64,000 bases of DNA, taken from Pontiellaceae bacterium B12227 (lineage in GTDB: Bacteria; Verrucomicrobiota; Kiritimatiellia; Kiritimatiellales; Pontiellaceae). The position numbers were made by a program, and so were the translations under genes. Location: positions 434,001 to 498,000 of the forward strand of contig JAROAZ010000001.1 in NCBI GenBank assembly GCA_029432775.1, given 5' to 3'. Positions within the stretch are counted from its first letter, which is position 1. Each line of letters begins with the position of its first letter. Of the stretch, positions 2,822 through 60,257 are shown one piece after another. The notes below the pieces were generated by a model. It had not been told where the DNA came from. It did no database searches and saw only the letters and a program-made list of their open reading frames with translations.

Positions 2822-3583
2822 ATGAAAAGAATCCTGTTTTTACTGGCCCTGTCCACACTTTCGGTTTTTGGATTTTCGCCCTATGAAAACTACCTGATGA
2901 GCGGCAAGCCCACCCGCGTCGGCCTGATTGCCTCGGTCAAGGCCGGCAGCGATACCGAACTGGATGCCGCCCTGCAGGCACTCGCAGAAAAGAAAACGAC
3001 CAAAGCCCTGAAGAAACAGAAGATCACCGGACTGGCCACCTACAAACAGACGTTTGCCGGTAAAACCTGGATCATGGTCTACTTCGACTACACGGGCAAA
3101 GAATACCTGCAGGCCGCCGCCACATTTGAAAAGGCCGTCGCTTTCCAAACCTTGGAAAAATGGATCGAGCCGCATCCGCGCGCTGCGCGCTACGGAACCC
3201 AATGGCTCCAGATGGAGTGGATCAACTATATCCGCGCCTCCCAAGAGAAGGGCGCGCCGACCGACCGCTTTGCCATGGTCACGCGAATTAAGCCGAAGAA
3301 AGAACAGGAATACCGCCTGCTCCACCAGACGGTCTGGCCCGGAGTGGTCGACCAGATGGTACGCAGTAATTACCGAAACTTTTCCGTTTTCTTTGTCGAG
3401 ATCGAAGACGAACTCTACGAATTTTTCCACGTCGACTATGTCGGGGACGACATCGAGAAGGATAATGGAATGACCAAACAGGATCCCTTCACCCAGCGAT
3501 GGTGGAAGATTACCGATGCCTGCCAGAATCCTCTGCCCGGTGCCAGCGGTCCGTGGCTGATGATGGACAAAATATCCAAATAA
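2822..3583 (+). CDS. Secreted tandem L-rhamnose mutarotase-like protein (DUF718 fold)
   Basis: A 253-residue protein with an N-terminal signal peptide (MKRILFLLALSTLSVFGF). The C-terminal ~110 residues (from VTRIKPKKEQEYRLLHQ) match the L-rhamnose mutarotase family, a dimeric alpha/beta-barrel that interconverts alpha and beta anomers. Residues ~30-140 look like a second, diverged ferredoxin-like half. Ordinary RhaM is about 105 residues and cytoplasmic, so both the doubled length and the signal peptide are unusual. Two nt after the symporter gene, so almost certainly co-translated with it: it may supply the transported anomer. A perfect TTCCAA-N3-TTGGAA palindrome lies inside (3143-3157) and encodes FQTLE. 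The sugar could also be L-fucose, since DUF718 relatives act on it. Confidence 0.72.
   Translation: MKRILFLLALSTLSVFGFSPYENYLMSGKPTRVGLIASVKAGSDTELDAALQALAEKKTTKALKKQKITGLATYKQTFAGKTWIMVYFDYTGKEYLQAAATFEKAVAFQTLEKWIEPHPRAARYGTQWLQMEWINYIRASQEKGAPTDRFAMVTRIKPKKEQEYRLLHQTVWPGVVDQMVRSNYRNFSVFFVEIEDELYEFFHVDYVGDDIEKDNGMTKQDPFTQRWWKITDACQNPLPGASGPWLMMDKISK
3143..3157. repeat. TTCCAA-N3-TTGGAA palindrome
   Basis: Perfect copy, spacer ACC, inside the mutarotase-like gene; read as F-Q-T-L-E. Confidence 0.9.
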
Positions 3584-3598
3584 CTAGGAAGTAGAATC

Positions 3599-4846
3599 AT
3601 GACTTCAAGAGAACGCGTACTCTCCGCCATCAACCACCAATCCACGAAACAGATACCGGTCGACATGGGATCGAATCCCAGCTCCGGCATTTCGGCCATG
3701 GGCTACACCAAACTCAAAACGGCACTCGGGATCGACTCCGGCCATACCCGCATCTTCGATGTCGTCCAGCAGTTGGCGCAGGTGGAGGATGAAGTCATCG
3801 ATGCCCTGGGCCTCGACATTATTGACATTGGTCGCGTCTTCAATACGTCCGATAACGATTGGTACGACATCACCATGCTCGACGGTTCCACTGCTCAATA
3901 TCCGAAGTGGTTCCGACCTTTGGAACGCGAAGACGGCTCCAACGAAGTGGAAGTGGATGGCATCGTTATTGCCCGCCGCCCGACCGACGGCGCCTTCTAC
4001 GACCAGACCCACTTTCCGTATGAAGGCGACTATCCCTCCGACTACAGCGATCTCCCCGCCGCCATGAACAAGGTGCTGTGGCAAAATCTGGCGCACAGTC
4101 CGTGGGACCATGCGGCCGACGACAACTTCTGGGTTGAGCTGCGCGAACGCACCCTCAAGCTGCGCGAACGCACCGACAAGGCACTGATGATCACCTGCGG
4201 ATGCAACCTCTTTGAATGGGGAACCTTCCTGCGCAAGCTGGACAATTTCCTGATGGATCTGCTGGCCGAACCCGAAGAGGTGGAAGGCCTGCTGGATGCG
4301 CTGATGGAGATACATCTCCAAGGATTGGAAAAGGTGTGCAATGCCGTGGGCGACATCGTCGACATCCTACGCTTCGGCGACGATCTCGGCACCACCGGCG
4401 GACTCTTCATGCCGCCGGATACCTACCGCGAACTTTTCAAGCCGCGCCACACCTTGCTGAATAAGTTTGTCCACGAAAACAGCCAGATGAAAACCTTCCT
4501 GCATTCGTGCGGTTCGATTTACCGCATTATGCCCGATCTCATAGAGGCGGGCTACGACATCATCAACCCCGTCCAGACCAACTGCTTTGAAATGGAACCA
4601 GAAAAGCTGAAGGCAGAATTCGGCAAAGACATCACCTTCTGGGGTGGCGGATGCGATACCGCCTCTATCCTGAACAAGGCCACACCCGACGAAGTCCGCA
4701 AGCACGTCCTTGAACGCTGCGAACTCTTCTCAAAAGACGGCGGGTTCATCTTCAACACCATCCACAACATTCTACCGGAAGTGCCCCCCGAAAACATCGT
4801 CGCCTGCTTCGACGCCGTAAAGGAATTCAACGGAAAATATTATTAA
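3599..4846 (+). CDS. Uroporphyrinogen decarboxylase-like (MtaA/UroD superfamily) protein 1
   Basis: A 415-residue cytoplasmic protein of the UroD/cobamide methyltransferase superfamily. It is not a heme enzyme by context. It has the zinc-binding H-x-C-G element (His302, Cys304) of MtaA/MtbA-like methyltransferases. The C-terminal region where MtaA has its third cysteine ligand instead reads T-I-H-N-I. GGGCD follows at the barrel end. Starts 15 nt after the mutarotase gene with an AGGAAG site. A diverged paralog lies at 13166-14416 in the same locus. Such UroD-like genes recur in sugar clusters of PVC bacteria, but the reaction is, to my knowledge, unproven; a methyl transfer or a decarboxylation on a sugar-derived compound are both possible. 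Confidence 0.78.
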   Translation: MTSRERVLSAINHQSTKQIPVDMGSNPSSGISAMGYTKLKTALGIDSGHTRIFDVVQQLAQVEDEVIDALGLDIIDIGRVFNTSDNDWYDITMLDGSTAQYPKWFRPLEREDGSNEVEVDGIVIARRPTDGAFYDQTHFPYEGDYPSDYSDLPAAMNKVLWQNLAHSPWDHAADDNFWVELRERTLKLRERTDKALMITCGCNLFEWGTFLRKLDNFLMDLLAEPEEVEGLLDALMEIHLQGLEKVCNAVGDIVDILRFGDDLGTTGGLFMPPDTYRELFKPRHTLLNKFVHENSQMKTFLHSCGSIYRIMPDLIEAGYDIINPVQTNCFEMEPEKLKAEFGKDITFWGGGCDTASILNKATPDEVRKHVLERCELFSKDGGFIFNTIHNILPEVPPENIVACFDAVKEFNGKYY

Positions 4847-4879
4847 AACCCATATCAAACACGTTATTGCACTAACGCT

Positions 4880-4933: not shown

Positions 4934-5000
4934 TAGACCTGCTTCTTCGAGGAACTGACCTGCCTTTATTTCAGTACTCTATCAATCACCGAAATATGTA

Positions 5001-8000: not shown

Positions 8001-10286
8001 TATAAACAATATGCGGTGAACGAAAGCTTCCGCGAAGCGGCGCAGGTGCGCGTGCGCTATATGCCCTCGGCCTCGACGGTGCCCGTGGCACACATCACAC
8101 CGAACCAGGGACGCTGGGAGCGCGAAATGCCGTCCGAACTCCTGCCGGTCCACACCGAAGATATCGAGATCAACACCCGGTATTCCAACGGCACGGTTCG
8201 CATCGGCATCGATGCGCTGCCCGCCGGCACGGCAACCAACCAGCATATTGTTTCCACCTCGCAGGTGGCCGCCTCTGCCGCCGGTACGACGGTTCAGGCC
8301 CAGGCCGAAAACAGCGGCGGCGTGATGGTTTCGCCGCTCATCACACAGGGCTTCCGTAACATCCTGCCGATGCAGGCAGCAGGCACCACCTATCCCGGCC
8401 TGTTCTGCTCCTATTCCCAGGGCGGCGGAAGCGTGCTGCCGGATATCCGTGTACCTGAACTGGGACTATCCGATTCCAACGACTATGTCTATGAAGGCTT
8501 CATCGAAGTTCCAGCCTCCGGAACCTATTCCTTCCGCTATAGCGGTAAAGATGTCGTGCTTAAGATCAACGGCATCGAGATCGCCAACTCACTGACCGAC
8601 GAAACTCGGATCCCGTGGGCGGTACAGACGAGCTTGGAGGCGGGTCTGCATGCGTTTGAAATGTCGCTTACCTGGAATGATACCGACCAGGACAGCATGC
8701 GAAATATCAGTACCTTCTTCCTCGACTGGAAACTTCCCGGCTCGAACGACTTTGCACGTGTTCCATCCGAGGCATTCAGCCATACCGCTGTCGGAGCCAT
8801 TCCGTCTGTAACGTTACAGGCCACTCAAAATCCAACCAATACCCTGGCCTTCACCTTCTCGGTGGCTTCCTCCGACGACGGCCTCGGCTCCCCCATCCCC
8901 GCCTCAAACATTGGATGGGATCTCGACGGCGACGGGCGCATCGACTTTACCGGCGTGAGTTCGCTGAACCACACCTATCCAGTGATTGGAACCTATTCCG
9001 TGGAAGTCATCGCCGTTAACAGCGACGGCGAGCGCGCAACCGACACGGCGATGGTCGACGCCGGCTCCGCCCAGCCCAACCAACCGCCGGTCGCCTCCAA
9101 TCTAGTGGTTTCCGTAACCGAAAACGGCAGCACCAACATTACGCTGACCGGTTCTGACCCGGAAGGCAGCAACCTATTCTATCATCTGGTTGAGGATCCG
9201 GCCCATGGTACGCTCAGCGGCACGTTGCCCCTCCTGACCTACACACCGATCTCCAACTACAGCGGAGCCGACAGCTTTACCTACACCGTCAGCGACGGCC
9301 AGACCAACAGTGCTGAGGCCACCGTATCGATTACAGTTGCAGCCCTCCCTGAAGTCGCGGGCATTGTGAGTATTGGCTCCGCGTCACCGTCAGGCGGAAG
9401 CAATATTCTCGCGGGAGCGGAAGGCTCGGAGACCCGCAGCCGTGAGGTGATCCGCACCGACTCCCAGCAGTTTGTGGTGGGTCAGTCCTTTCAGCTGGAA
9501 GCCTTGCATCCGGGCCAAACCTATGAGCTGTCCGAGCTCTATCTGAAATCAAGAACCGCAGAAGATTTCGATGAATATTCGGATCTGCTGCAGATCAAAG
9601 TGTTTACCAACACCCAGGCGGGCGCCACCCTGCTGGGCACCTGGTCCTTCGACCTCGCTACTCTCGGTGATGGTACGGGAGCCAACGAAGTGGCCGCCTA
9701 CGAATGGGTACGCTTCAGCCTAGGTGACGGGCTGACGCTCGATGCCGGCGGAACCTACAGCTTCCTGATGTTCTTTGATGGCAGTTCCGGTCCGAACGAC
9801 ATCAACAAGTGGGGATTTATGCGCGACGATTCCGGCATCTATGCCGAAGGCAACCAATGGGAAGGCCGCAACACTGCCTCCCCCGCCTACGTGGCTTCCG
9901 ACTGGACTTCCAATCCCTGGAACAATGTGCTGGCCGACAGCAACGACGATTTCATGTTCTACATCGGCGGCTCTGTGGTCGCCGGTGATATCGACACCGA
10001 CGGTGACGGACTGACCGATGCGCAGGAGCTGGCACTCGGCACCGACCCCAACGATTCAAATTCTACATTCGGTATTGACGGCACGCCGCTTCCAATGTCT
10101 GGAAACATTCAGCTCACCTGGCCGAGCGCCACGGGCGTGCTCTACCGCATCTGGGAAAGTCCTGATCTGGTCGGATGGACTGTTACGCGTGACTGGACCC
10201 ATGCGCTGACCCCACCGGAGGATACAATTGAAGTTACCCTCACACCATCCAATGGCTTCTTCAAGGTCGAGGCAGAAATCGAATAA
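5091..10286 (+). CDS. Giant secreted heparinase II/III-like polysaccharide lyase, multidomain
   Basis: About 1731 residues. A signal peptide (hydrophobic run ending near SESA) is followed by an alpha/alpha-toroid domain (~50-530) and a heparinase II/III-type beta-sandwich. The latter carries the motif H543-WSGGG-SHTHNDN with His550 and His552, matching the family's metal/catalytic region. Later modules are a PA14-like domain (~1070-1226), a PKD domain (~1240-1325), a cadherin/Ig-like domain (~1328-1418), the unnamed SREVIRTDSQ module (~1421-1628), a DTDGDGLTD Ca-binding repeat (~1632-1656) and a C-terminal beta module. It should cleave uronate-containing polysaccharide outside the cell. ATG 5091 follows GGAAA; ATG 5109 is an alternative. 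The sulfatase gene follows after 19 nt, so both probably act on one sulfated glycan. The exact PL family is uncertain. Confidence 0.8.
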   Translation: MWPVLQMIKLSTLFIFSTALLLPQLSESAETTAAYIPFSTAPSAQTVADTMPPMGTDYSNKLERMTFFMNGNFTYPLRDIHDYATGNRSRAFQLSHPLRIHSHSTYDVSWADSNVVNKYTKEEVASWAPLHTPGIKTPNPRTKLVNWTWDPDDPNVIRDVTSGEAFPNATYPENQTGYGVSAQGEVTSVTYWEDPAYAASPYTVYCTDDTSKPDQNIFNGRYYFTGMRDYLRSEWLMTAMGPLSRAYLESGNEIYAEYVRDILVAYAANYNSMFGVREHISSKGRMGSYVFDPMLNHIGSPMKLLQRFHRDTGYHVGIDRLNELMDIYDRVYSADAFNETVPGEGISARDFIEQNFIEPMFDLSWDTRPDKEGVVGNIADYAFDTCHAALVMGKPDWARMCNDFVEINLTQSIASWDMITLESPGYHINWAGNVSRAAHLMNYYEDPPGYTDADGVHLKGKDYRLTENFKRMFTSPDVFRYPDGRNIAVHDAANREPTTVKNIGWPDYSAGVIEKSRNRIAPGFGHTSLGDGENDRQIQAHLHWSGGGSHTHNDNLTIGLFAFGRELYGDPGYSWADYARAPYGHNTVFINGTSPYVDEGRIGNNLFHAPTLPGLAVSRIEHTQDYRFSVSSVDRYRRTQALNTTDLDHPYVIDLFEVFGGNKHEFFLQGSMRDRMQAASNLSAGEKQSYTTGTSYYSLLSNMEVGDVRSNTTVTMTYTDDAQQGVKIHVAHDASDNMELILGDGPVYYDTSTPSSGESGISTPKMILRRDGSNLKTVFALVHEPFTGGATSIQSVDKTIVESNGVPVELALTITFTDGRIDHHLFSLDGTDEVNIEDQRSMSTGPLSANASYAAAITDGADCDLYLVGGTSANCGTKSLSVPEAVVTGSLLDTHRAILGAEEDGYISDINLPLGERLDREMIYIDFLNPDGSVDFVDSFEIKRVDAHSNGVFIAIHQDAVVDYDPADGLYKQYAVNESFREAAQVRVRYMPSASTVPVAHITPNQGRWEREMPSELLPVHTEDIEINTRYSNGTVRIGIDALPAGTATNQHIVSTSQVAASAAGTTVQAQAENSGGVMVSPLITQGFRNILPMQAAGTTYPGLFCSYSQGGGSVLPDIRVPELGLSDSNDYVYEGFIEVPASGTYSFRYSGKDVVLKINGIEIANSLTDETRIPWAVQTSLEAGLHAFEMSLTWNDTDQDSMRNISTFFLDWKLPGSNDFARVPSEAFSHTAVGAIPSVTLQATQNPTNTLAFTFSVASSDDGLGSPIPASNIGWDLDGDGRIDFTGVSSLNHTYPVIGTYSVEVIAVNSDGERATDTAMVDAGSAQPNQPPVASNLVVSVTENGSTNITLTGSDPEGSNLFYHLVEDPAHGTLSGTLPLLTYTPISNYSGADSFTYTVSDGQTNSAEATVSITVAALPEVAGIVSIGSASPSGGSNILAGAEGSETRSREVIRTDSQQFVVGQSFQLEALHPGQTYELSELYLKSRTAEDFDEYSDLLQIKVFTNTQAGATLLGTWSFDLATLGDGTGANEVAAYEWVRFSLGDGLTLDAGGTYSFLMFFDGSSGPNDINKWGFMRDDSGIYAEGNQWEGRNTASPAYVASDWTSNPWNNVLADSNDDFMFYIGGSVVAGDIDTDGDGLTDAQELALGTDPNDSNSTFGIDGTPLPMSGNIQLTWPSATGVLYRIWESPDLVGWTVTRDWTHALTPPEDTIEVTLTPSNGFFKVEAEIE

Positions 10287-10305
10287 TGAACCTCAAAGGA
10301 ACTTA

Positions 10306-12117
10306 ATGAAACACAGATTTTTTTTAACCACCCTGACTATTGCCGCCACCCTGCTGCTGAGTGCCGACGTTGCCACGGCGGCTTCGCAGCCCAACGTAAT
10401 CATCGTCATCACCGATGACCAGGGGTACGGCGATCTATCATGCCACGGCAACCCGGTGCTGCAAACTCCTGCCATGGACAAACTGCACGAGCAATCGGTG
10501 CGGCTGACCAACTTCCATGTCGATCCCACCTGCGCGCCGACGCGCGGCGCGCTGCTGACGGGCAAATATTCGCACCGCGCGCGCATCTGGCACACGATTG
10601 CCGGCGGCAACTGCATGCGGGCAAGCGAAACCACGATGGCCGACATTTTCAAAGCCTCCGGCTACCGCACCGGCTGCTTTGGAAAATGGCACCTGGGCGC
10701 GAGCTATCCCTACCGCCCGATAGATCGCGGCTTCGAGGAATGGGTGGGGCAAGGCGACGGCGGCACCGGCACCACTGCCGACTGGTTCACCAACGACCGC
10801 GTCAACGACATGTACATCCACAACGGCGAATGGGAGCAGTATGACGGCTGGGCCCCCGACGTCTTTTTCGAGAAGGCCATGGATTTCATGAAAGACGGCG
10901 ACCGGCCGTTCTTCACCTACCTGGCTACGTACATCCCCCATACCCCGCTCACGATTCCCGACAAAGCATGGGCCGATAAATATCGCGACAAGGTAAAGCT
11001 GAACGAAGCCTACTTCTTCGCCTGCATCGAAGGCGTCGACCGCCAGATTGCCAAACTCGATGCGTTCCTGCATGAAGAAGGGCTGGCCGACAACACCATC
11101 CTAATCTTCATGACCGACAACGGTGCCACCGGAGGAAAAAATGTCCACAACGCCGGCATGCGAGGCAACAAGGGAATGGTCTATGAAGGCGGCCATCGGG
11201 TGCCGTTCTTTATCCGCTGGCCCAGCGGCAAGCTCGCCCACGGTTCCGATGTGGGTGCACTCACGGCTCATATCGACGTGTCCCCCACCCTGATCGAACT
11301 CTGCAAACTGACCCCCCCGGTCAACGCCGATTTCGACGGACGCAGCTTCAAGGAGTTGCTCTACAACCCCGAAGCAACCACAACTGAACGTTCACTGGTG
11401 GTGGAAAAACAGCGCACCCTGAAGCCTGAAAAGTACGAAAAGTATGCTGTCATGAACCAGAAATGGCGGCTTGTTAAGGAGCAAAATGATGGAGCCCCGG
11501 AACTGTTCGATATTGCAGCGGATCCCGGTCAGCAGACTGACGTGGCCGACAAGCATCCGGAAATTGTGGAGTCGTTGCTGGCCGATTATGAGCAATACTG
11601 GAAACATGTCTCCCCCGGCGATCGCGTGGTGGCACGTCCAGTCATTGGAACAGCGCACGAAACCGAAACGCTGTTGCACGCTTCCGATCTGTATGCGCCG
11701 GCTCCCCCGTGGAACCATGCCTATGTTACCCAAGGTCGCACAGCCATCGCACCCTACCCCATTCGTATTGCGGAAAGCGGAACCTACCGCATTGAAGTAC
11801 GCCGCTGGCCGCGCGAAGCTGACGCCGCGATGAGCGGAGTTCCAACCTTTGGAAAAGAGGTGGATGCGTGGGTCTACGACAAACCAATCAAAAAACTGAT
11901 TTATAGCTATAGCGGCAAAGTAAAAGCCCTGCCCGTCGAATCGGTTCACCTGACGGTCGGCGCGATTGACCATACCAAACCGGTTTCCTCCACCGACACC
12001 TGCACCGTCTTCGAAGCATCACTGAAAAAAGGAGACTACAACCTGCAGGCCGACCTATTGGATAAACAGGGCAACCCCATCACCAGCGCCTACTATGTGT
12101 ATGTCCGCAATATTTGA
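10306..12117 (+). CDS. Secreted type I sulfatase (S1 family)
   Basis: A 603-residue protein with a signal peptide (to about ATAAS). The N-terminal metal motif is ITDDQGYGD, and the formylglycine signature is C76-A-P-T-R80, so the enzyme needs oxidation of Cys76 by an FGE or anaerobic maturase; neither is in this window. The later K/H region (GKWHLG) and the DNG element (MTDNGATGG) are also present. Residues ~460-603 form an extra beta-rich C-terminal domain beyond the usual ~450-residue core. I chose ATG 10306, preceded by AAAGGA; a longer reading from 10228 overlaps the lyase gene. Predicted to remove sulfate esters from the polysaccharide cut by the upstream lyase. It contains a perfect 15-bp palindrome at 11840-11854. 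Confidence 0.9.
   Translation: MKHRFFLTTLTIAATLLLSADVATAASQPNVIIVITDDQGYGDLSCHGNPVLQTPAMDKLHEQSVRLTNFHVDPTCAPTRGALLTGKYSHRARIWHTIAGGNCMRASETTMADIFKASGYRTGCFGKWHLGASYPYRPIDRGFEEWVGQGDGGTGTTADWFTNDRVNDMYIHNGEWEQYDGWAPDVFFEKAMDFMKDGDRPFFTYLATYIPHTPLTIPDKAWADKYRDKVKLNEAYFFACIEGVDRQIAKLDAFLHEEGLADNTILIFMTDNGATGGKNVHNAGMRGNKGMVYEGGHRVPFFIRWPSGKLAHGSDVGALTAHIDVSPTLIELCKLTPPVNADFDGRSFKELLYNPEATTTERSLVVEKQRTLKPEKYEKYAVMNQKWRLVKEQNDGAPELFDIAADPGQQTDVADKHPEIVESLLADYEQYWKHVSPGDRVVARPVIGTAHETETLLHASDLYAPAPPWNHAYVTQGRTAIAPYPIRIAESGTYRIEVRRWPREADAAMSGVPTFGKEVDAWVYDKPIKKLIYSYSGKVKALPVESVHLTVGAIDHTKPVSSTDTCTVFEASLKKGDYNLQADLLDKQGNPITSAYYVYVRNI
11840..11854. repeat. TTCCAA-N3-TTGGAA palindrome
   Basis: Perfect copy, spacer CCT, inside the sulfatase gene; read in the frame V-P-T-F-G-K. 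Confidence 0.9.
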
Positions 12118-13165: not shown

Positions 13166-14416
13166 ATGACTTCCCGCAAAAGGATGCTCCAATCGCTGAA
13201 TCATAGAGGGGGCCCGGTGCCCATCGACTTCGGATCGACGGCCATCACCGGCATGCACTGCTCTAATGTCGCCGCACTACGCGACCACTACGGTCTGGAA
13301 AAGAGACCGGTCAAAGTACACGAGCCCTACCAGATGCTCGGACTGATGGAGGACGACCTGCTCGATGCCATCGGCGTGGATACCGTCGGCATGGAACCGC
13401 TCTCCAATATTTTCGGATTTCCTTCCAATGATTGGAAACCGTGGACCGCGCCATGGGGTCAGGAGCTACTGGTCCCCGGAAAATTTAACGTCGTCCAGAA
13501 TGACAAAGGAACCTATATCTATCCGCAAGGAGATACCGAAGCCCCCTTCTCCGGGCACATGCCCACGACCGGATTCTTTTTCGACGCCATCATCCGCCAG
13601 CCGGAGATCGACGACGACAATCTCAATCCGGAAGACAACCTCGAGGAATTCAACCCGCTGACTGACGAGGAGCTGGGTCGCCTCAAACTCTACGCGAAAA
13701 CCGCCGAGGCCTCCGGTCGTTGCGTCATCGGCGGCGGCCCGGGCACGGCGCTGGGCGACATCGCACTCGTTCCCGCACCGTTTCTCAAGGAGCCCAAAGG
13801 CATCCGCGACATTACCGAGTGGTATATCTCGACCGCCATCCGTCAGGATTACATTCACGAGGTATTTACGCGCCAGACCAAGCTGGCTCTCGCCAACCTC
13901 GAAAAGATGTGGGCGTCCGTCGGCGAACTGATGGATGTGATTGTCATCTGCGGTACCGATTTCGGAACCCAGACCGGCAGTTTTTGCTCGCCAGAAACCT
14001 ACGATGAACTGTGGCACCCGTACTACCAACAGATGAACGACTGGATCCACGCCAATACAACGTGGAAAACCTTCAAACACTGCTGCGGCGCAGTTGAAAA
14101 CTTCATGGACCGCTTTATCGCCTCGGGCTTCGACATTATCAATCCGGTGCAATGCTCCGCCACCGGCATGGACCCGCAAGTGCTGAAAGATCGCTACGGC
14201 GACCGGATCACCTTCTGGGGCGGCGGAGTTGATACCCAGCACGTCCTGCCATTCGGCACCCCGGGGGAAGTCCGCGCCCAGGTATTGGAACGCTGCGAAA
14301 TCTTTTCCCAAAACGGCGGTTTCGTTTTCGATGCCATCCACAACGTGCAGGCCAACACACCGGTTGAAAATATGGTGGCTATGATCAATGCTGTTCACGA
14401 ATTTAATGAGAATTAA
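13166..14416 (+). CDS. Uroporphyrinogen decarboxylase-like (MtaA/UroD superfamily) protein 2
   Basis: A 416-residue paralog of the protein at 3599. The opening MTSRKRMLQSLNHRGG and the barrel order correspond. The zinc element reads H305-C-C307-G, and the GGGCD of paralog 1 is GGGVD here. The C-terminal A-I-H-N-V matches the T-I-H-N-I of paralog 1, so the family-specific histidine is kept. The two paralogs are clearly diverged, which suggests two substrates or a two-subunit arrangement rather than a recent duplication. An AAGGA site precedes the ATG, and the fusion glycosidase follows after 12 nt. It contains a perfect palindrome (13423-13437) that encodes SNDWK. The reaction is not known to me. 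Confidence 0.78.
   Translation: MTSRKRMLQSLNHRGGPVPIDFGSTAITGMHCSNVAALRDHYGLEKRPVKVHEPYQMLGLMEDDLLDAIGVDTVGMEPLSNIFGFPSNDWKPWTAPWGQELLVPGKFNVVQNDKGTYIYPQGDTEAPFSGHMPTTGFFFDAIIRQPEIDDDNLNPEDNLEEFNPLTDEELGRLKLYAKTAEASGRCVIGGGPGTALGDIALVPAPFLKEPKGIRDITEWYISTAIRQDYIHEVFTRQTKLALANLEKMWASVGELMDVIVICGTDFGTQTGSFCSPETYDELWHPYYQQMNDWIHANTTWKTFKHCCGAVENFMDRFIASGFDIINPVQCSATGMDPQVLKDRYGDRITFWGGGVDTQHVLPFGTPGEVRAQVLERCEIFSQNGGFVFDAIHNVQANTPVENMVAMINAVHEFNEN
13423..13437. repeat. TTCCAA-N3-TTGGAA palindrome
   Basis: Perfect copy, spacer TGA, inside UroD-like 2; read as S-N-D-W-K. The paralog UroD-like 1 has D-N-D-W-Y at this place without the palindrome. Confidence 0.9.
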
Positions 14417-50192: not shown

Positions 50193-51815
50193 CTATTGGT
50201 CATTCACCTTACAGGGGGCGATTTCGGCTATCTTTTGCTGCAGCGCCTTTTCGTAGACTGCAACGCGCTGAGCCTGCTCGGGGCTGCCCGAAATATTCCG
50301 GGTTTCAAGTGGATCCTTTTTGTAGTCGTAGAGTTCGATAAAGGCGGGTTCTGTTTCCATACCAAAACCGGGTCTCTTTGCTTTGTACACCTTTTCGTCC
50401 AGAACCTTGTACCACGCAACATAACGATAGCGCTCATCACGCAACGCATAGCCCATGTAGACTTTCCCGCTGGGCGTACGGGGATATTGACTTAAAGCAA
50501 ATTCTCTCACCTTTTCCGCCTTTCCATCCATGAGTACGGCAAGGCTTTTCCCCGGCAAATGAGATGGGATTTCCAATCCGGCCAGATCGCACAAGGTCGG
50601 GAAGATGTCAACAAACTCCGTCGGAGCTTGAGTCTTCATGCCCTTAGCCTTCATTCCCGGCGCGGCCATGATCAGCGGAGAGCGGGTGCCCTGCTCAAAG
50701 TTCGAGTGCTTGCACCACATATTATGGTCGCCCAGGTGCCATCCATGATCGCCCCACAGGCAGATAATGGTGCTGTCGGCAATGCCCAGTTCGTCGAGCT
50801 GGTTGAGCAGGCGCCCGATCTGCGCATCGATGTAGCTGACACAGGCCATGTAGCCATGGATCAGGTTGCGCTGATACTCTTCAGGTAACATGTCATCTTT
50901 CGGAACATCAGAATACATGCCGCGCAGCTCCCACCCCGGCTGGTAGCCGATCGACGGTGCGCCTTCCGGCTGCTTCATATAGTCAGCCAGTTCGATTTCC
51001 GCAGGATCGTAGAGATCCCAATATTTTTTCGGAGCCACAAACGGCAGGTGTGGTTTTTGGTAACCCACAGAAAGAAAGAACGGCTTATCAGCGGCTGCCA
51101 GTTTCTCGAGCAGCTTCATGGCGCCGGCGGTCCGGGCACCATCGTAGTAGGCATCGTCCGGCACATCGCAGCATTCAAATGCGGGGCGTGATCCGGGACT
51201 GCTCAAAATAGTTTCTTTTTCGCTGCGCCCCTCCTTTTTCTTTTTCTCCTGACGATAAAGATCATCCGCAGCTTTATTCAAACGCCGGGTTTCCGGGTCC
51301 TGGAAAGCGTATTGCGGCGATTCATACCCTTTGGCAATGAGCATATTTTCACCATGTTTCGAATACGGGATCGACCATGAGGGTTCGTCGAGCATCTTAT
51401 CGACACAGCGGCTATCGTAGGTTTTTCCTAGACCGGTAGTTTCGTAACCCATCTGTCTGAAATACTGCGGGATGGTCAGGATATCCGGATTCATGTCGCG
51501 CATTTTAGTGGAGAGATCATAGATGCGGGTGGTATCCGGATAAAGCCCGGTCATCAGGCTGGCGCGCGACGGTCCGCATACGGCCTGTTGGCAATGGTTG
51601 TTCAGAAAAACCATACCGCGCTCGGCCAAACGATCAATGTTTGGCGTCTTAATCGAGTCATCACCATAACAGGCCAGCATTGGTTTAAGGTCGTCGATGG
51701 GAATAAACAGCACATTCGGTCGTATTTTCGGCTGAGCGGCAGCCAATGCGGATGCACGTTCAACCGCAGTAATTAAAATAAGCAACGATAGTAATGCCGG
51801 AACATATATTTTCAT
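50193..51815 (-). CDS. Type I sulfatase, S1_7-like (iduronate-2-sulfatase related)
   Basis: 540 residues, signal peptide ending RASALAA. The metal motif is PIDDLKPMLACYG and the formylglycine signature is C80-G-P-S-R84 followed by ASLMTGLYPD. GYETTGLGKTYD and WGDHGWHLGDHNMW correspond to the family catalytic blocks. Close in style to iduronate-2-sulfatase (S1_7), which removes sulfate from uronic acids or fucose-like sugars. A single gene on the minus strand, divergent from the GH36 gene with 568 nt between them. Confidence 0.9.
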   Translation of the reverse strand: MKIYVPALLSLLILITAVERASALAAAQPKIRPNVLFIPIDDLKPMLACYGDDSIKTPNIDRLAERGMVFLNNHCQQAVCGPSRASLMTGLYPDTTRIYDLSTKMRDMNPDILTIPQYFRQMGYETTGLGKTYDSRCVDKMLDEPSWSIPYSKHGENMLIAKGYESPQYAFQDPETRRLNKAADDLYRQEKKKKEGRSEKETILSSPGSRPAFECCDVPDDAYYDGARTAGAMKLLEKLAAADKPFFLSVGYQKPHLPFVAPKKYWDLYDPAEIELADYMKQPEGAPSIGYQPGWELRGMYSDVPKDDMLPEEYQRNLIHGYMACVSYIDAQIGRLLNQLDELGIADSTIICLWGDHGWHLGDHNMWCKHSNFEQGTRSPLIMAAPGMKAKGMKTQAPTEFVDIFPTLCDLAGLEIPSHLPGKSLAVLMDGKAEKVREFALSQYPRTPSGKVYMGYALRDERYRYVAWYKVLDEKVYKAKRPGFGMETEPAFIELYDYKKDPLETRNISGSPEQAQRVAVYEKALQQKIAEIAPCKVNDQ

Positions 51816-52383: not shown

Positions 52384-54432
52384 ATGAAACCGAATTGTAC
52401 AATCATAGCGCTCGCCGCACTGGCCTCTTTGGCAGTATACGGCACCCCGACCCTCGACTTCCAAACATTGGAAACAGGCGTTAAAATCCTCGAAAATCAT
52501 TCCGCCCGTCCCGATTCTAAAGGCGTTATGAATACCTTCACGCTGAAGGTCCCGGAGTTCAGCCGAGGCGTCTACTACCGCGGCCAGTGGTGGCCCTATG
52601 CCGGTAACCGCATGACCGGCCGCCACATCACCGAACCCAACGGTCCGGAGGGCGGCATCTTTCTTCTGCTGGAACTCAAGGCGGGCGGCTACCTCGCCGT
52701 ACTCCCCCTCTCCGGCGACCAGGCCTATTCCTGGTTCGCACCGAACGGCTCCGATTTCATCCTCAAATTCGGCACGCACGGCAAGGCCTCCATTAAAGGC
52801 GATTTTCCATTGGTGGCCTGGGCGCAAGGTGCAACACCGTATGAGGCCTGTTCCAAGGTTTGGAAGTCTGCGAGTGAAACACCGCAGATTGCAGGGCACA
52901 TGAAGCTGCGCGGGGAAAAGGACTATCCCGACATGTTCCGCTACCTCGGCTGGTGCTCCTGGGAGGAGTTTCATAAAAACATCACCTCCGACCTGTTGGT
53001 CGAACAGCTCAAAGGGCTCGCCGCCTCCCCTGCCCCCGTCCGCTATTTCCTCGTCGACGACGGCCACTTCAACAACCAGACGCTCAAACCGAAAGCGGAT
53101 ATCTTCCCGCGGGGCTACAAGCCGCTGACCGATCTACGCTCGGACGATGGCATCCGCTGGGTCGGCATGTGGCACGCATTAATGGGCGAATGCAACGCCG
53201 TCCGCGCACCCGGCCAGCTCGGCGACATCGATAAGCACATGATGACCACCTACAATAAAAAGAAGGTCGCCAAGCCTAATGCATCCGATGCGGAAGCCTT
53301 CCTCAAATACCTATTCAGCTTTTCAAAGCGCGACGACATCGACTTCGTGAAAGTTGACTTCTATGGCGGTCTGCTCCCCTACTATGCTGGCACCGGTGCG
53401 GGCTCTATTACAGCCGATTTCCCAGCAACCAATGCGAACGCGATCGATAATCCCGCCGAAGCAACCGTCAACTATGCCCGCGTCTACCAGAGGGTGGTCG
53501 AAGATCAGTTCGACGGACTGATCAACTGCAACTGGCACCAGCCGCAGTTCCTCTTCAACTCCGGCAACTCATCGGTAGGCCGTTGCAGTGCCGACTACAG
53601 CAAGGGTAATCTGAAAAAAGCCAAAGCCCACCTCTACGACTCCTATGCCGCCATGCCCTGGCTCGGTCAGATTGCCTGGGGCGACCACGACATGTTTCAT
53701 TCCAACGACAAGTTTGCCGGACGCATGATGGCCATCTCCAAGGCCCTCTCCGGCGCACCGGTCTACCTGTCCGATCCCTACGATCATCTGGACCTCGAAA
53801 ACATCAAACCGCTCTGCTACGAAGACGGCCTGCTGCTGCGGCCGCTCGCGCCGGCCGCGCCGCTACCCGAGGATGTTTTCCAACCCTTGGAAGCCAAACG
53901 CCTGCACCGCGCCATGGCACCGCTGGCCCACCGTTCAGTCGCCCTAGCCGTCTATAACTTCCACGGCGATGCTAAAAAAGATAATCCTGAATTCTCCACC
54001 ACAATTGTTCCGGCCGACTATGCCGCAGCCGGCGGCATGATGCAGCCGTTTTCCAATGATTGGAAACTTCCGGCTGAAGGATTAATCGTCTACGACTATT
54101 ACAAGGGAACCGCACAGAAAATGAATACCGGATACGACGTTTCCATCGAAGGGTTCGGCGATTGCCTGCTGCAGCTCAGCCCGATCAAGAATGGATGGTC
54201 AGTCATCGGCCGCACCGACAAATATCTTTCCGGTGCTGCGGTTGAATCAATCAAAGCCGATAAAAAATCACTCACGGTTCAACTTCATGAATCCGGCCCG
54301 TTCGGCCTCTGGCTGAATAAGGGAACGCCGGTCGCCGAAGGCGTCACGTTTACCGACAAAGGCAACGGCTTCTTCGTTGCCGATCTTCCGGTAAAGGCTG
54401 AGCCGATTCAGTTCACGATCAAACGGAAATAG
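52384..54432 (+). CDS. GH36-like (raffinose synthase/Sip1 family) secreted enzyme
   Basis: 682 residues, signal peptide (to LAVYG). The (beta/alpha)8 domain has the raffinose-synthase/Sip1 marks GWCSWEEFH (~198), Asp325 in K323-V-D325-F (likely nucleophile) and Asp404 in SADYS (likely acid/base). Family members cleave or transfer alpha-galactosyl groups. A C-terminal beta-sandwich (~590-682) closes the protein. Four perfect copies of the TTCCAA-N3-TTGGAA palindrome lie in this single gene (52459, 52851, 53878, 54051). The sulfatase gene follows after 6 nt, so the pair should act on the same sulfated galactan-type substrate. Confidence 0.85.
   Translation: MKPNCTIIALAALASLAVYGTPTLDFQTLETGVKILENHSARPDSKGVMNTFTLKVPEFSRGVYYRGQWWPYAGNRMTGRHITEPNGPEGGIFLLLELKAGGYLAVLPLSGDQAYSWFAPNGSDFILKFGTHGKASIKGDFPLVAWAQGATPYEACSKVWKSASETPQIAGHMKLRGEKDYPDMFRYLGWCSWEEFHKNITSDLLVEQLKGLAASPAPVRYFLVDDGHFNNQTLKPKADIFPRGYKPLTDLRSDDGIRWVGMWHALMGECNAVRAPGQLGDIDKHMMTTYNKKKVAKPNASDAEAFLKYLFSFSKRDDIDFVKVDFYGGLLPYYAGTGAGSITADFPATNANAIDNPAEATVNYARVYQRVVEDQFDGLINCNWHQPQFLFNSGNSSVGRCSADYSKGNLKKAKAHLYDSYAAMPWLGQIAWGDHDMFHSNDKFAGRMMAISKALSGAPVYLSDPYDHLDLENIKPLCYEDGLLLRPLAPAAPLPEDVFQPLEAKRLHRAMAPLAHRSVALAVYNFHGDAKKDNPEFSTTIVPADYAAAGGMMQPFSNDWKLPAEGLIVYDYYKGTAQKMNTGYDVSIEGFGDCLLQLSPIKNGWSVIGRTDKYLSGAAVESIKADKKSLTVQLHESGPFGLWLNKGTPVAEGVTFTDKGNGFFVADLPVKAEPIQFTIKRK
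52459..52473. repeat. TTCCAA-N3-TTGGAA palindrome
   Basis: Perfect copy, spacer ACA, inside GH36. Read in frame as F-Q-T-L-E, the same peptide as at 3143-3157 (spacer ACC). Confidence 0.9.
52851..52865. repeat. TTCCAA-N3-TTGGAA palindrome
   Basis: Perfect copy, spacer GGT, inside GH36; read in the frame giving S-K-V-W-K. Confidence 0.9.
53878..53892. repeat. TTCCAA-N3-TTGGAA palindrome
   Basis: Perfect copy, spacer CCC, inside GH36; read as F-Q-P-L-E. Confidence 0.9.
54051..54065. repeat. TTCCAA-N3-TTGGAA palindrome
   Basis: Perfect copy, spacer TGA, inside GH36; read as S-N-D-W-K, the peptide also encoded by the copy at 13423-13437 in UroD-like 2. Confidence 0.9.
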
Positions 54433-54438: not shown

Positions 54439-55887
54439 ATGAAACGAAGACGCTTTTTTCAGACTCTTTCGACCGCAGCAGCCGCTGTTTCCTGCCACGC
54501 GGCAAACAACGTCACGAAACCCAACGTGGTCTTTTTCCTGATTGATGATATGGGCTGGAAGGATCTCGGTTGCTTCGGCGCCAAGCTATATGAGACACCG
54601 AATATCGATCGGCTCTGCGCCGAAGGCGTCCGCTTTCCGCAGGCTTACACATCGGCCGCCATTTGCTCGCCTGCCCGCGCCACCGCGCTGACCGGTCGCC
54701 ACCCGATGAAAATGCAGATGTGGAATCACATGCACTTTCTTCCGCAAGGCCAGAAAATTCTGCCGCAATACCTGAAAGATGCCGGCTACCAGAATTGGCA
54801 CGTCGGCAAGTGGCATATGGGCAACGAAAAGGATAAGACCTTTCCCGAAGATCTCGGCTTCGACACCAACATCGGCGGCTGGACGGCGTGGGGTCCGGGC
54901 TCCTACTTCTGGCCCTACCTATGGAACGGTAAGGCGCATAACCGCAACAGTGTTCCCATGCTGAAAGAAGATGGTAAGGAAGGCGAACAACTGACCGACC
55001 GCCTCACCGAAGAGGCACTCAAGTTGATTGATGCCCGCCAGCCCGATCAACCGTTCTACCTCAATTTCTGGTACTACTCTGTTCACAACCAGAAGGAAGC
55101 CAAAGCGGAGCTCATCAAAAAGTACGAGCGCAAGATCCGGGCGATGGAGCTCGAAAAAACAGTCCGACTGGATCCGGGCACGGGGAAAAACCTGCTCACC
55201 AGCGAAACAAACGCAAAATATGCTGCTATGATCGAGACGGTCGACCACTCCGTCGGCCGTGTGATCGAAAAACTCAAAGCCATCGGCGAATACGACAACA
55301 CCCTGTTTATCTTCTTTTCCGACAACGGTTCCACCACCGACGATGTTCCCTGCACGCCACTCAACGGCGGCAAGAACTCAACCTACGAAGCGGGCGTACG
55401 CGTGCCCGGTTTCATGGCGTGGAAAGGCCGCATCCCTGCCGGCACGGAATACAACCATTCCATGTACATCGGCGATGTATTCAACACCGTCATGGAAGCA
55501 ACCGGTCAGACCATTCCTGCCAACCATGAAACCGACAGCACCTCGCTGCTGCCCGTGTTCGCCGGCAAACAGCTGCCGCCCCGCGAGTTTGTCTGGTATT
55601 TCCCCGACACACGCGAACGCTGGGGGCAACGCGCCAATGCCGCCATTTTTGACGAAAAGAGCGGCATGAAATATTTCATGTTTTTCAATGGCGATGGCGA
55701 CGAGCTCTACGACCTCAACAAGGATATCGGCGAAACAACCAACCTGATTGAGCAGCAACCTGAAACCGCGCAGGCCCTGCAGCAGCGCCTGGTAAAATTC
55801 CTTAAGCAAAACATGGAAGGCCTGCCGCCCACCAAACCCAATTTCCAAGCGAGTGTTGAACAACGCCTAGGGCTTACTATAGAATAG
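54439..55887 (+). CDS. Secreted type I sulfatase (S1 family)
   Basis: 482 residues with a Tat-like start (MKRRRFFQTLSTAAAAVSC; Arg-rich n-region but no full twin-Arg consensus). The metal site is LIDDMGWKDLG, the formylglycine signature is C76-S-P-A-R80, the GKWHMGNE element follows, and FFSDNGSTTDD is the second metal site. The length is close to the core family. It is 6 nt after GH36 and 4 nt before the PhoD-like gene, so all three probably share a transcript. It should desulfate the galactan-type substrate of GH36, though the exact position cannot be told. Confidence 0.9.
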   Translation: MKRRRFFQTLSTAAAAVSCHAANNVTKPNVVFFLIDDMGWKDLGCFGAKLYETPNIDRLCAEGVRFPQAYTSAAICSPARATALTGRHPMKMQMWNHMHFLPQGQKILPQYLKDAGYQNWHVGKWHMGNEKDKTFPEDLGFDTNIGGWTAWGPGSYFWPYLWNGKAHNRNSVPMLKEDGKEGEQLTDRLTEEALKLIDARQPDQPFYLNFWYYSVHNQKEAKAELIKKYERKIRAMELEKTVRLDPGTGKNLLTSETNAKYAAMIETVDHSVGRVIEKLKAIGEYDNTLFIFFSDNGSTTDDVPCTPLNGGKNSTYEAGVRVPGFMAWKGRIPAGTEYNHSMYIGDVFNTVMEATGQTIPANHETDSTSLLPVFAGKQLPPREFVWYFPDTRERWGQRANAAIFDEKSGMKYFMFFNGDGDELYDLNKDIGETTNLIEQQPETAQALQQRLVKFLKQNMEGLPPTKPNFQASVEQRLGLTIE

Positions 55888-57447: not shown

Positions 57448-60195
57448 CTACTGAGGTATAGTCGGACGGATAAACAGCTTGCCCGCCGAACCGGACAGAG
57501 AATCCGGAATGGTAACCGTGGTCGGGATTCCTCCGCTCTCGCCATCCAGCGTGGTAAAGACCTGCCAGTTTCCCTCGATAAGATTGGTGGTCGTCTCAAT
57601 GTTGTAGCGCGCCCCATCGAGCAGATTCCTTATGGTATAGTCCATTTCTCCGTTTGCATTGATAACCGATGACGTGGCATTGGAAGCATCGGGCACGGCG
57701 GGATCCAAACCGAATGCAAGTTCGTGATAGTAGCTCAGGCCGTCGCCATCGGCATCTTCCAGCAGCGCGGGATAGGTTGCGATGACCGGCCCGACATTGT
57801 CATAGGCCACCAGGTCGCGCCCCAAACCGATGCGGGCATCAGGAGCGTAGTCGCCGGTGGATGCCATCCAGTCAGCCAGAATTTTGCGATAAGCTTTGAG
57901 CTCGTCTGCATACGCCGGATTGTCAGCGAGGTTGTTGACCTCAAAGGGATCGGCCTGAAGGTCGTAGAATTCCTCTGGCACCTTGTTGCCGAGGAAATAG
58001 CGCTGCTCGGAAGTCAAACTCACGCTGTTTGTCATACTTCGTGGATTAAGAATCCTATTGGCATAATTCCCGTTGATGAAGGGAAGCTCCGGGTAGAAGT
58101 GCCGGAGATATTTAAAGCGATGACCCACAACGGCCCGCGAGCGGTCAAAGATGCCATCAACTCCGTCACGCGTGGCGAACACATGAGAGCGGCTGGTCAG
58201 ATCGGCATTGAAAAGATCCAGTCCTTCCATCTTTGGTGGACGCACCGCATTCCCCGCATTAATGCAGGTTGTGGCGATGTCGATGATGCTGGTCAGGTTG
58301 GTGTCCACGGAGCCGGGAGCAACCTGCCCCGGCCAACGGATGATCATCGGTACGTGGATGCCGGTCTCATAGAGCCACTGCTTGTGGCGCATAGTCGCAC
58401 GGCCATGATCGGAGGCCAGAATAACCAGCGTGTTGTCCGCTTCCCCACTCAGTTCCAGTCCTTCAAGAAACCGGCCGACCACATAATCGGTGGCGGAAAC
58501 CGCATTGAGGGACTGAGCAACATAATTACGCCAGTCGGCCGTATCCTCAAGATAAGGAGGAAGGGTGACCTCATTCGGGTTGACCGCCAAGGATGGAACC
58601 TGCGCATTAGCCCAGGTGGTTCCGGTACCAAAGCCATGCGCCTTCCCCGTTTCGATATTCACAAAGGCGAAGAAGGGCTGCCCCGGGGTCCGGTTGGTCC
58701 AGGCTCCCCCTTTGAAAATAGTATGGGGATCACAATACGGGCTGTCATTGGGCCCCGTAAAGGTGAAATCGTGGATGTACTGGAAGATATGCGGATCGCT
58801 GCCCTTAGCCAAACTTTTCGTGGAATGGCTGTCGTTGGCAAAGTTGAGATCGGTTTTGCCGGATGCGCCCCAGCGAATATCTCCGTTACTCACATTCACG
58901 GTGAAATATCCCGCATCCGATAAGGCTTCCGGAAGCGAGCCATGCCCCTCCGGCAACTGGTCAATATAGTGACTGCGGTGATGCGGCGCCCCAATGGTTG
59001 TGACATAGTTTCCGGATAACAGAGCCGTATGCGATGGGGAGCAGACCGGGTTGGCCACATAGGCGCGGGTATAGCGGATTCCGGTAGAGGCAAGTGTGTC
59101 GATGTTCGGCGTATGCGTGAGGTCTGCATCCGGAGAGATCCCGAAGGAACCATCGTAACAACCAAATGTGGGATCGAGATCGTCGAGATAGATCATGAAA
59201 ATGTTGGGTTGATTAAGCGAAGCATCCGGCATCGCAGATGCTTCCAGCGAATCGGCCGACTCCTCATCCAGATTATTCTTCGCCGAAACCACATAATAAT
59301 AGGTCGTTCCATTCACCGCATTAGTATCCACAAAAAGGGGTGCTGTTGGAACCGCGCCCGGCACGGCTGCATACGGGCCGTTGGAAGTGACCGAACGCTT
59401 GACGACAAAGTGGTCGAACCCGGCCTGATTATTGGAATCCCAACTCAAGCTGATCTTCCCGTTACCCGGAACGGCGGTGACGCCAGTCGGCACATCCGGA
59501 ACGGCTACTTCGCTCGTCTGAACCACCAAAATGGCGTTTGCATGAATACTTCCCGCCTGCGAGGAGAAGGTCAACGACTGGGTGGTTGCATCTGCGGTAA
59601 AACTGCCGACGGCATGCTGCCCATAATCATCCGGCTCTCCCGTGGACACCGCCCCGTTCATGATGCTCACCGTATTCCCGAGGCCATCACCCAATATGAG
59701 GTATTTATAGTTGCGCTGATCATTATAGAAAACCTGAACCTTATAGTCATCGCCAATGGTTAAACCCGAAAGCGAAAGGGTTCCGGTTTTAATCTGATTC
59801 GGATAAGCCAGGCTTCCGATGACGAGATCAAAGTTTGCATCGCCCGTGGAAGCCATGATAACCGGTGCTTTATAGATCGCACTCGCGGCCAGCTTCCCGG
59901 TACCAACGCTCTCGCCGGCATCAGCACCCGTTGAAACAAAATCCAAACCGGCAAATGTTTGCGCCGTAAAGTGGTAGGAACTGGTTCCAGAACCCCCTGC
60001 TCCAGTTACGGTCGAGGAGGATGCCCCCAGGTTGTAGGCGTGCAGTACATTACCTTCAACCAACTGGGATTTACCCGTGGTATCCGTGGCGTCACTCCAG
60101 CTGATGGGGGCAGCGCACGATTCCCTTGGCATGGCGAATGCGGCTAGGCAACCCAGCAACATTAAAAAGTTCGTTTTCAGTGTATTGTATTTCAT
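57448..60195 (-). CDS. Large multidomain sulfatase with atypical CSPSH signature
   Basis: 915 residues, ATG 60195 (MKYNTLKTNFLMLLGCLAAF, signal peptide). A ~200-residue beta-rich domain (~30-225) and a fibronectin III domain (~230-325, YYVVSAKNNLDEES) precede the sulfatase core (~335-770). The core metal motif is IYLDDLDPTFGCYDG, and the formylglycine site reads C385-S-P-S-H389 in place of C-x-P-x-R. The second metal site ASDHGRATMRH looks intact. A DADGDGLSYYHELAFGLDP repeat and a C-terminal beta module follow. The Arg to His change could affect maturation or activity. It is downstream of the SUMF1-like gene on the same strand, with a one-mismatch palindrome between them (60240-60254). Confidence 0.82.
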   Translation of the reverse strand: MKYNTLKTNFLMLLGCLAAFAMPRESCAAPISWSDATDTTGKSQLVEGNVLHAYNLGASSSTVTGAGGSGTSSYHFTAQTFAGLDFVSTGADAGESVGTGKLAASAIYKAPVIMASTGDANFDLVIGSLAYPNQIKTGTLSLSGLTIGDDYKVQVFYNDQRNYKYLILGDGLGNTVSIMNGAVSTGEPDDYGQHAVGSFTADATTQSLTFSSQAGSIHANAILVVQTSEVAVPDVPTGVTAVPGNGKISLSWDSNNQAGFDHFVVKRSVTSNGPYAAVPGAVPTAPLFVDTNAVNGTTYYYVVSAKNNLDEESADSLEASAMPDASLNQPNIFMIYLDDLDPTFGCYDGSFGISPDADLTHTPNIDTLASTGIRYTRAYVANPVCSPSHTALLSGNYVTTIGAPHHRSHYIDQLPEGHGSLPEALSDAGYFTVNVSNGDIRWGASGKTDLNFANDSHSTKSLAKGSDPHIFQYIHDFTFTGPNDSPYCDPHTIFKGGAWTNRTPGQPFFAFVNIETGKAHGFGTGTTWANAQVPSLAVNPNEVTLPPYLEDTADWRNYVAQSLNAVSATDYVVGRFLEGLELSGEADNTLVILASDHGRATMRHKQWLYETGIHVPMIIRWPGQVAPGSVDTNLTSIIDIATTCINAGNAVRPPKMEGLDLFNADLTSRSHVFATRDGVDGIFDRSRAVVGHRFKYLRHFYPELPFINGNYANRILNPRSMTNSVSLTSEQRYFLGNKVPEEFYDLQADPFEVNNLADNPAYADELKAYRKILADWMASTGDYAPDARIGLGRDLVAYDNVGPVIATYPALLEDADGDGLSYYHELAFGLDPAVPDASNATSSVINANGEMDYTIRNLLDGARYNIETTTNLIEGNWQVFTTLDGESGGIPTTVTIPDSLSGSAGKLFIRPTIPQ

Positions 60196-60257
60196 ATCAA
60201 ATCTCTGGCTTGCGGAAACAACATGCACAAACAAAAAGTTTCCAATGCCTGGAAAAG

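Follow-up and report, generated by a model that had tools for sequence, protein, structure and literature searches.

The question raised by this locus is why one short DNA word is written over and over in a single genome. The window, a stretch of 64,000 nucleotides from Pontiellaceae bacterium B12227 (class Kiritimatiellia; GenBank contig JAROAZ010000001.1, positions 434,001 to 498,000; C111:434001-498000 in our numbering), contains the 15-bp palindrome TTCCAA-N3-TTGGAA in 11 perfect copies. An initial annotation, made from the letters alone, had placed these eleven and at least seven copies with one mismatch. All of them are present, together with one additional site at 9908-9922. None of 100 dinucleotide shuffles of the window contains a perfect copy, and the 19 sites with at most one mismatch compare with a shuffle mean of 0.30 and a maximum of 3. 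Among all 6-bp inverted repeats of the window with gaps of 0-11, TTCCAA at gap 3 tops the list, and the only other repeat exceeding two copies, TTTCCA at gap 5 (3 copies), is the same dyad shifted one base outward.

The excess extends over the whole genome (G000; 6,294,789 bases in 206 contigs), which holds 1132 perfect copies against 1 for the reversed pattern, and 2297 copies of the relaxed form TTCCA-N5-TGGAA against 6 for the control. For finer counts we used 659 kb of G000, consisting of 400 kb of contig C111, the window and 195 kb picked around conserved pairs. This sample contains 149 perfect copies, whereas 89 permuted palindromes of the same composition total 3 (mean 0.03, maximum 1). 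Copies with one mismatch number 148 (permuted palindromes average 1.0) and copies with two mismatches 149 (average 15.6). The expectation of far less than one chance copy per 64 kb is thus borne out by shuffles and permutations alike, and the genome count lies about 1000-fold above the reversed-pattern control. As the initial annotation had supposed, the literature searched gave no description of TTCCAA-N3-TTGGAA, exact-string searches included, with subscription journals mostly outside the scope.

The geometry of the motif is exact. In the 659 kb, all 149 copies have the half-sites 3 bp apart, with 0 copies at gaps 0-2 and 4-8. Of 96 copies, 91 have C or G as the middle base of the spacer, so that the earlier statement that spacers vary holds for the outer spacer bases and fails for the central one. 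The base flanking the dyad is T (A on the opposite side) in 55% of the 96 copies, which gives the working consensus TTTCCAR-NSN-YTGGAAA. Changes are concentrated at one position: among the 148 one-mismatch copies the innermost A is altered in 88, in 75 of these to G, and the TCC core in 11. Both inner bases are G in 15 sites against 9.4 expected if the half-sites were independent. The half-sites therefore vary nearly independently, which suits recognition by a dimer.

Within the 659-kb sample, split by our own simple hexamer gene caller (466 genes), coding DNA carries 171 copies per Mb (101 copies) and noncoding DNA 709 per Mb (48 copies); noncoding DNA makes up 10% of the sample yet holds 48 of the 149 copies. 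The difference persists in the 464 kb that were picked without regard to sites (172 per Mb, 72 copies, vs 520 per Mb, 24 copies; p 2e-5). Copies were said to fall in all three reading frames and in spacers, and this is what we observe, with the 101 coding copies divided 44/31/26 between frames. Noncoding copies occur in every type of intergenic gap, most densely in convergent gaps (8 in 6,452 bp).

Orthologous alignments reveal how single sites come and go (G numbers label compared genomes, f numbers families and L numbers read stretches). Sites appear and disappear through substitution, also within genes; no inserted DNA is seen, and one site falls in a gapped stretch. The 71 kb with an alignment to G159 or G245 include 26 perfect G000 sites; their counterparts are perfect in 18 cases, have one mismatch in 5 and four in 2, and are gapped in 1. 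Ten of these 18 were seeds used to pick the regions; without the seeds, 8 of 16 are perfect. As background, the same 12 positions agree in 7.3% of 66,240 gap-free 15-mers. A comparison with G404, whose region was picked for a gene that carries four sites in G000 and not for conservation, covers 8 sites (2 perfect, 2 with one mismatch, 2 with two, 1 with three, 1 gapped; background 5.2%). The spacers of conserved sites (17, counting the seeds) are kept no better than the surroundings (mean 0.76 vs 0.83). Of 10 coding sites perfect in one of two genomes, 7 have an amino-acid difference at the codon of the altered fixed base; a wider count over six codons, with spacer and edge among them, gives nine. 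The alignments support, on a modest sample, that the dyad is retained between species above background. The earlier remark that the dyad itself is what is kept agrees with the exact gap, with the 12 bases held while the spacer changes and with the near-independence of the half-sites. Selection is the simplest reading of this retention; the same pattern would be expected from a drive such as biased transformation.

Within the phylum sample, one class only is rich in the motif. In a hand tally of 387 genomes of the phylum, drawn from a larger set, at least 10 perfect copies occur in 36 of 131 Kiritimatiellia genomes and in 0 of 256 outside the class, where the largest count is 5. Densities within Kiritimatiellia reach about 340 strict dyads per Mb. 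Close relatives are enriched in many cases, not in all: the 28 genomes of the window's genus range from 0 to 1177 perfect copies. Neither outcome named in the initial annotation as refuting, genome-wide counts near expectation or no enrichment in close relatives, was thus obtained. When the inner base is relaxed, several seemingly empty genomes prove to be rich (G068 with 302, G095 with 271, G225 with 221, G047 with 183, G335 with 181, G239 with 141). In stretches of G095, G047, G239 and G068 the sites mostly read TTCCAY-N3-RTGGAA. We refer to this as the Y spelling, and to TTCCAA-N3-TTGGAA as the A spelling. Among 80 class genomes, with families f1 and f2 excluded, the Y spelling reaches at least 10 copies in 10 (14 to 298), and these have at most 2 A copies. 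The 23 A-rich genomes of the same 80 have at most 6 Y copies, and no genome has at least 10 of both. The Y genome G239 is congeneric with the A genomes G253 and G362, G264 (Y, with just 14 copies) is congeneric with G074 (A), and both spellings occur within family f10. As spelling differs within two genera and within one family, the word appears to have been rewritten several times. Apart from this, the G239 stretches (L437-L442) contain a separate inverted repeat, TCATACTT-N4, three times in 64 kb.

Neighbouring sites prefer certain spacings. Seven genus members contain 83 perfect pairs with starts 20-40 bp apart; among the 75 listed, from six of these genomes, 16 lie at 22-23 bp, 12 at 27-28 bp, 33 at 31-33 bp and 2 at 34-40 bp. 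The ranges 21-23 and 31-33 bp together take 51 of the 75 (p 2e-12, with bins picked after the data were seen). Bins fixed by 10.5 bp per turn (20-22 and 31-32 bp) take 35 (p 2e-5). In other families, arrays contain 2-7 sites at spacings of 22 or 30-32 bp, in regions mostly picked because close pairs were listed, and the spacers of these arrays are unrelated apart from A/T-rich edges. Close neighbours of the Y spelling, in the four genomes read, stand 31 (14), 32 (2) or 22 (1) bp apart. When named genome contigs were searched for triplets of sites with 31-32 bp spacing, at least 116 stretches matched. The 80 listed carry the labels Kiritimatiellae, Kiritimatiellia, Kiritimatiellales, Kiritimatiellaeota or Pontiellaceae, or are other bins (Verrucomicrobia, Lentisphaerae, Spartobacteria, uncultured bacterium). 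Across these 116 loci, neighbours lie at 31 (215), 32 (131), 22 (13), 30 (7), 33 (5) and 20 bp (3), and once each at 17, 39, 41 and 42 bp, where the search pattern itself selects 31-32 bp. A spacing of about two or three helical turns points to protein-protein contacts on one face of double-stranded DNA.

Among viral contigs, single sites occur in at least 120 stretches, and 4 stretches on 3 contigs have phased pairs. Several phased arrays stand on one putative viral contig, IMGVR_UViG_3300035698_006241 (L423, L424), which may come from a host or from a Kiritimatiellia phage that has adapted to the word.

We consider it most likely, with a probability of about 0.5, that the palindromes are sites of one dimeric, cooperative, nucleoid-type protein with a candidate role in chromosome organisation. 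One sequence-specific protein would bind the double-stranded dyad as a symmetric dimer, each half reading TTCCA plus one variable inner base, with the halves held exactly 3 bp apart. Contacts would form between neighbouring bound dimers, separated in most cases by about two or three helical turns. The 1132 perfect and 2297 relaxed sites show a three- to fourfold higher density in noncoding DNA, yet lie in every gap type and in genes, which argues for a nucleoid-associated chromosome organiser rather than a promoter regulator. Hundreds of chromosome-wide sites within and between genes are also what is expected of a nucleoid protein. Sites would arise through ordinary point mutation and then be retained. 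In several lineages, the second spelling may go back to changes in the reading head of the protein; the sites of each genome would then have been rewritten.

Several observations weigh against the chromosome organiser. A range of 0 to 1177 copies within one genus is odd for an essential organiser. The 12 pairs at 27-28 bp are about half a turn out of phase and fit no whole-turn spacing. Outside the seeds, the evidence for retention amounts to 24 sites (16 + 8), and in a small composition-matched control set 5 of 20 were kept. No clear trend between origin and terminus is seen among 63 copies in 20 evenly spaced 20-kb stretches of G081, the one genome in which this was followed (a single contig of 3,882,676 bp, 52.9% GC in the sampled part, with the origin set at the GC-skew switch); by hand count, the 10 stretches nearer the origin have 37 sites and the other 10 have 26. 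No motif-binding protein was found in a search that, among DNA-binding families, covered Lrp/AsnC only. Finally, the existence of two spellings is reminiscent of DNA uptake sequences (DUS), which come in dialects.

This last point belongs to the main competing explanation, an uptake signal, which we regard as unlikely. A competence receptor would prefer DNA bearing the word, biased transformation would spread and keep it, and the spellings would act as exchange barriers like the DUS dialects of Neisseriaceae. Dispersed copies, an excess in noncoding DNA and a fixed core with lineage variants all fit. This explanation gives no reason for the helical-turn spacings, and to our knowledge no helical phasing is known for DUS. 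A ComEC domain is present in 77 of 80 class genomes, motif-free genomes among them, so its presence does not discriminate. The uptake sequences of Neisseriaceae and Pasteurellaceae are similar in their very many copies, in a fixed core with dialects (thousands of copies and eight dialects for DUS; PMC3630211) and in intergenic excess; DUES are commoner than expected in non-coding DNA and are not palindromes (PMC1939737), whereas our motif is a strict dyad with an exact gap.

It is improbable, in our view, that the reader is a global transcription regulator with a regulon of unusual size. The higher density of noncoding over coding copies in the 659 kb (709 vs 171 per Mb) speaks for such a regulator, as do sites that stand ahead of genes: a pair retained in G000 and G245 directly ahead of a gene that we read as lysA (a seed pair), a perfect site just ahead of a gene that we read as rplE, in the ribosomal protein operon of two low-copy genomes of the window's genus (L105:5362-5376 in G391, L113:5835-5849 in G394), and a site about 40 bp ahead of lrp in G081 and G032. 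The distribution of arrays can be read both ways. Among 121 arrays of at least three sites in other class members, 44 lie within reading frames 120 aa or longer (of which some are surely spurious), 27 at an edge, 15 and 13 in the two classes of tandem gaps, 14 in divergent gaps and 8 in convergent gaps. Convergent gaps are thus the rarest place for such arrays (8 of 50), as a regulator would have it, but the remaining classes are even at 15, 14 and 13, the density in G000 is highest precisely in convergent gaps, and 101 of 149 copies lie within genes.

Still less probable is a word made or kept by methylation-dependent repair or by restriction-modification, with no structural role. CCA-N5-TGG does have the form of an interrupted restriction site, but 12 fixed bases across 15 bp are long for a methyltransferase site. 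Repair that generates a gapped dyad is hard to picture, and the preferred spacings would be left unexplained. The precedent is HIP1 (GCGATCGC; 2 copies in the window), which is described as a genome-wide iterated palindrome, lineage-restricted and of unsettled function, with alternates in exceptional genomes that come with a matching methyltransferase (PMC4390886). The initial annotation had named a HIP1-like palindrome as one of four options, beside a chromosome-organising or replication-linked motif, a methylation target and an uptake signal, and had not decided between them. The comparison with HIP1 stands for scale and dispersal and breaks down for build: HIP1 has 8 bases without a gap and is linked to GATC/CGATCG methyltransferases, whereas the Kiritimatiellia motif spans 15-17 bp with a gap, two half-sites, phased pairs and arrays, and spellings that differ at the inner base only.

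It is very improbable that the motif is a mobile palindrome of the REP kind, mobilised by Y1 (RAYT-type) transposases. Such an element would account for palindromic arrays between genes, and Y1 copies per Mb do correlate weakly with motif density over 80 genomes (Spearman 0.36, p 0.001; medians 1.5 vs 0.8 per Mb, p 0.002), with a Y1 protein in 36 of 38 motif-bearing genomes. However, two of the 38 lack Y1 and 30 of 40 motif-poor genomes have it (2 intermediate genomes excluded), the spacers of array copies are unrelated, and aligned sites differ by substitutions with no inserted DNA seen and 1 of 26 in a gapped stretch. An RNA hairpin in transcripts is equally hard to credit: the dyad could fold into a stem of 6 bp closed by a loop of 3 bases (-4.2 kcal/mol), and among inner variants in coding DNA 40 of 65 preserve G-U pairing when read on the mRNA strand (p 0.08), but sequence is kept beyond pairing alone, and the C/G at the loop centre and the helical-turn spacings indicate double-stranded DNA.

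For the chromosome organiser, one comparison is with the nucleoid protein CdbA. The study of CdbA in Myxococcus xanthus reports 569 ChIP peaks, genic and intergenic, with about 35% intergenic against less than 10% of the genome (PMC7156744). Our sites are similarly chromosome-wide in and between genes, with the share of noncoding copies given above. CdbA differs in that it reads a moderately specific direct repeat, whereas the Kiritimatiellia motif is a highly specific inverted repeat. Noc, MatP, SlmA, KOPS and Chi are further chromosome-organising or repair-linked words. Noc, MatP and SlmA sites number in tens, and KOPS and Chi are oriented and not palindromic; the density of Chi in E. coli is of the same order as that of our motif. 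For the motif, no clear origin or terminus bias was seen in G081, the one genome sampled. New here is the second spelling; the motif combines its two spellings with preferred helical spacings in a gapped dyad that, in the phylum sample, is rich in Kiritimatiellia only.

Lrp/AsnC proteins bind 15-bp 6-N3-6 palindromes, and Lrp prefers A/T at the centre base; the centre of our motif is C/G. Archaeal Lrp-type proteins are described as binding sites two or three helical turns apart (PMC2995911). Apart from the minority of pairs at 27-28 bp, the motif follows the same spacing rule, and Lrp/AsnC was therefore considered as the reader. Of 80 class genomes, 73 encode an Lrp/AsnC protein, and motif-poor genomes are among them. 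At 27 loci of the common lrp gene, a site stands close upstream in 2 only (perfect in G081, one mismatch in G032, both of family f2). The recognition helix varies at exposed positions among A-spelling genomes, and no residue was seen that separates the spellings. A proline in this helix looked like a mark of the Y spelling in the first 4 Y genomes; the idea fell with G264 and G291, which are Y without the proline, and with four A genomes of family f3 that have it, as do the A genomes G090 and G104. Overall, 8 of the 10 genomes with the Y spelling, 6 of the 32 with the A spelling and 3 of the 6 poor in the motif carry the proline (two second-copy proteins excluded). We reject the class's common Lrp/AsnC protein as reader, as its presence and recognition helix track neither motif density nor spelling.

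Genes adjacent to arrays were a second source of candidates. Clustering of the neighbours in 136 loci gave none: the largest cluster (70 loci) consists largely of reading frames across the arrays themselves, and 8 proteins from the next clusters belong to common families (oxidoreductases, ABC transporters, two-component proteins and others). Low-copy genomes were rejected as pointers to a core regulon. Twenty array-neighbour proteins, from low-copy and other genomes, are mixed, six of them defence-like, and the low-copy genomes share two sites, ahead of the genes read as rplE and fusA, which do not amount to a regulon. Ahead of the gene read as fusA, the motif is embedded in a more extended inverted repeat, GGAAGGTTCCAA-N3-TTGGAACCTTCC, whose loop is altered (L103:9935-9949 in G087, L113:13639-13653 in G394), possibly a regulatory hairpin. 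Arrays adjoin defence-like genes in L029 (G038), L027 (G059), L033 (G371) and L042 (G162); these genes encode a ResIII helicase, a HARE-HTH protein, AbiEii, DUF6602, a Schlafen/Fic-like protein and a type I specificity subunit. The arrays in the low-copy genomes G038 and G059 may be imported DNA.

Two observations concern the ComEC and Y1 surveys. Besides the usual ComEC, a second, larger ComEC/Rec2-domain protein occurs, often in two pieces, encoded by ORFs some 730-1370 aa long, in families f3, f7, f8, f9, f10, f16, f26, f27 and f33. In G121 (f17), a ComEC match at C1:1409676-1410500 has three in-frame TAG codons and a Y1 transposase match at C1:1893839-1894171 has one, which may indicate TAG reassignment or decay.

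Within the window, the sites are spread over a region for sulfated-polysaccharide degradation. Three ORFs match Pfam sulfatases and two more have sulfatase matches below the cut-off; an alpha-L-fucosidase with CBM6 and F5/8 domains (14429-18274) and two URO-D-like genes belong to the same region, whose ORFs are 3599-4846, 10228-12117, 13166-14416, 14429-18274, 34661-37036, 50193-51815, 54439-55887 and 57448-60234. The first perfect site, TTCCAAACCTTGGAA (3143-3157), lies inside ORF 2822-3583 in the frame that reads FQTLE. Further perfect sites inside genes are TTCCAACCTTTGGAA (11840-11854) in the sulfatase ORF 10228-12117, TTCCAATGATTGGAA (13423-13437) in the URO-D-like ORF 13166-14416 and TTCCAATGGTTGGAA (17715-17729) in the fucosidase-type ORF. 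The raffinose-synthase-like ORF 52384-54432 holds four, in a locus that aligns to G404 at 76% identity: TTCCAAACATTGGAA (52459-52473) has 2 mismatches in the G404 orthologue, TTCCAAGGTTTGGAA (52851-52865) is intact, TTCCAACCCTTGGAA (53878-53892) has 1 mismatch and TTCCAATGATTGGAA (54051-54065) is intact. TTCCAATGCTTGGAA (43945-43959), noncoding and 16 bp past an MscK-like ORF, forms a pair spaced 29 bp with the perfect site TTCCAAAGATTGGAA (43974-43988), and the perfect site TTCCAACCCTTGGAA (46780-46794), also noncoding, stands directly ahead of the Omp85-like ORF 46805-48175. One-mismatch sites are TTCCGACCTTTGGAA (3911-3925) and CTCCAAGGATTGGAA (4316-4330), both inside ORF 3599-4846, ATCCAACGATTGGAA (17549-17563), TTCCATTCGTTGGAA (17941-17955) and CTCCAAACATTGGAA (46597-46611). 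The inner-base variants are TTCCAATCCCTGGAA (9908-9922), the site added here, which has the commonest tolerated change, TTCCAATGTCTGGAA (10090-10104) and TTCCAATGCCTGGAA (60240-60254).

No function is agreed upon for HIP1 and other words iterated across a genome, and why one word is written a thousandfold becomes testable here. If the proposed reader exists, it would be findable by matching recognition residues to spellings, since the two spellings, which differ even within a genus, would serve as natural specificity mutants, and the build of the sites would imply a dimeric protein with contacts across two or three turns. We tentatively suggest, at slightly less than even odds, that Kiritimatiellia carry a chromosome-wide, putatively protein-read DNA code, preserved even at fixed bases that determine amino acids, grouped into phased arrays and with two or more spellings between which several lineages have switched, which would represent a new nucleoid-organising or self-marking class in which the reader and all of its sites have co-evolved.

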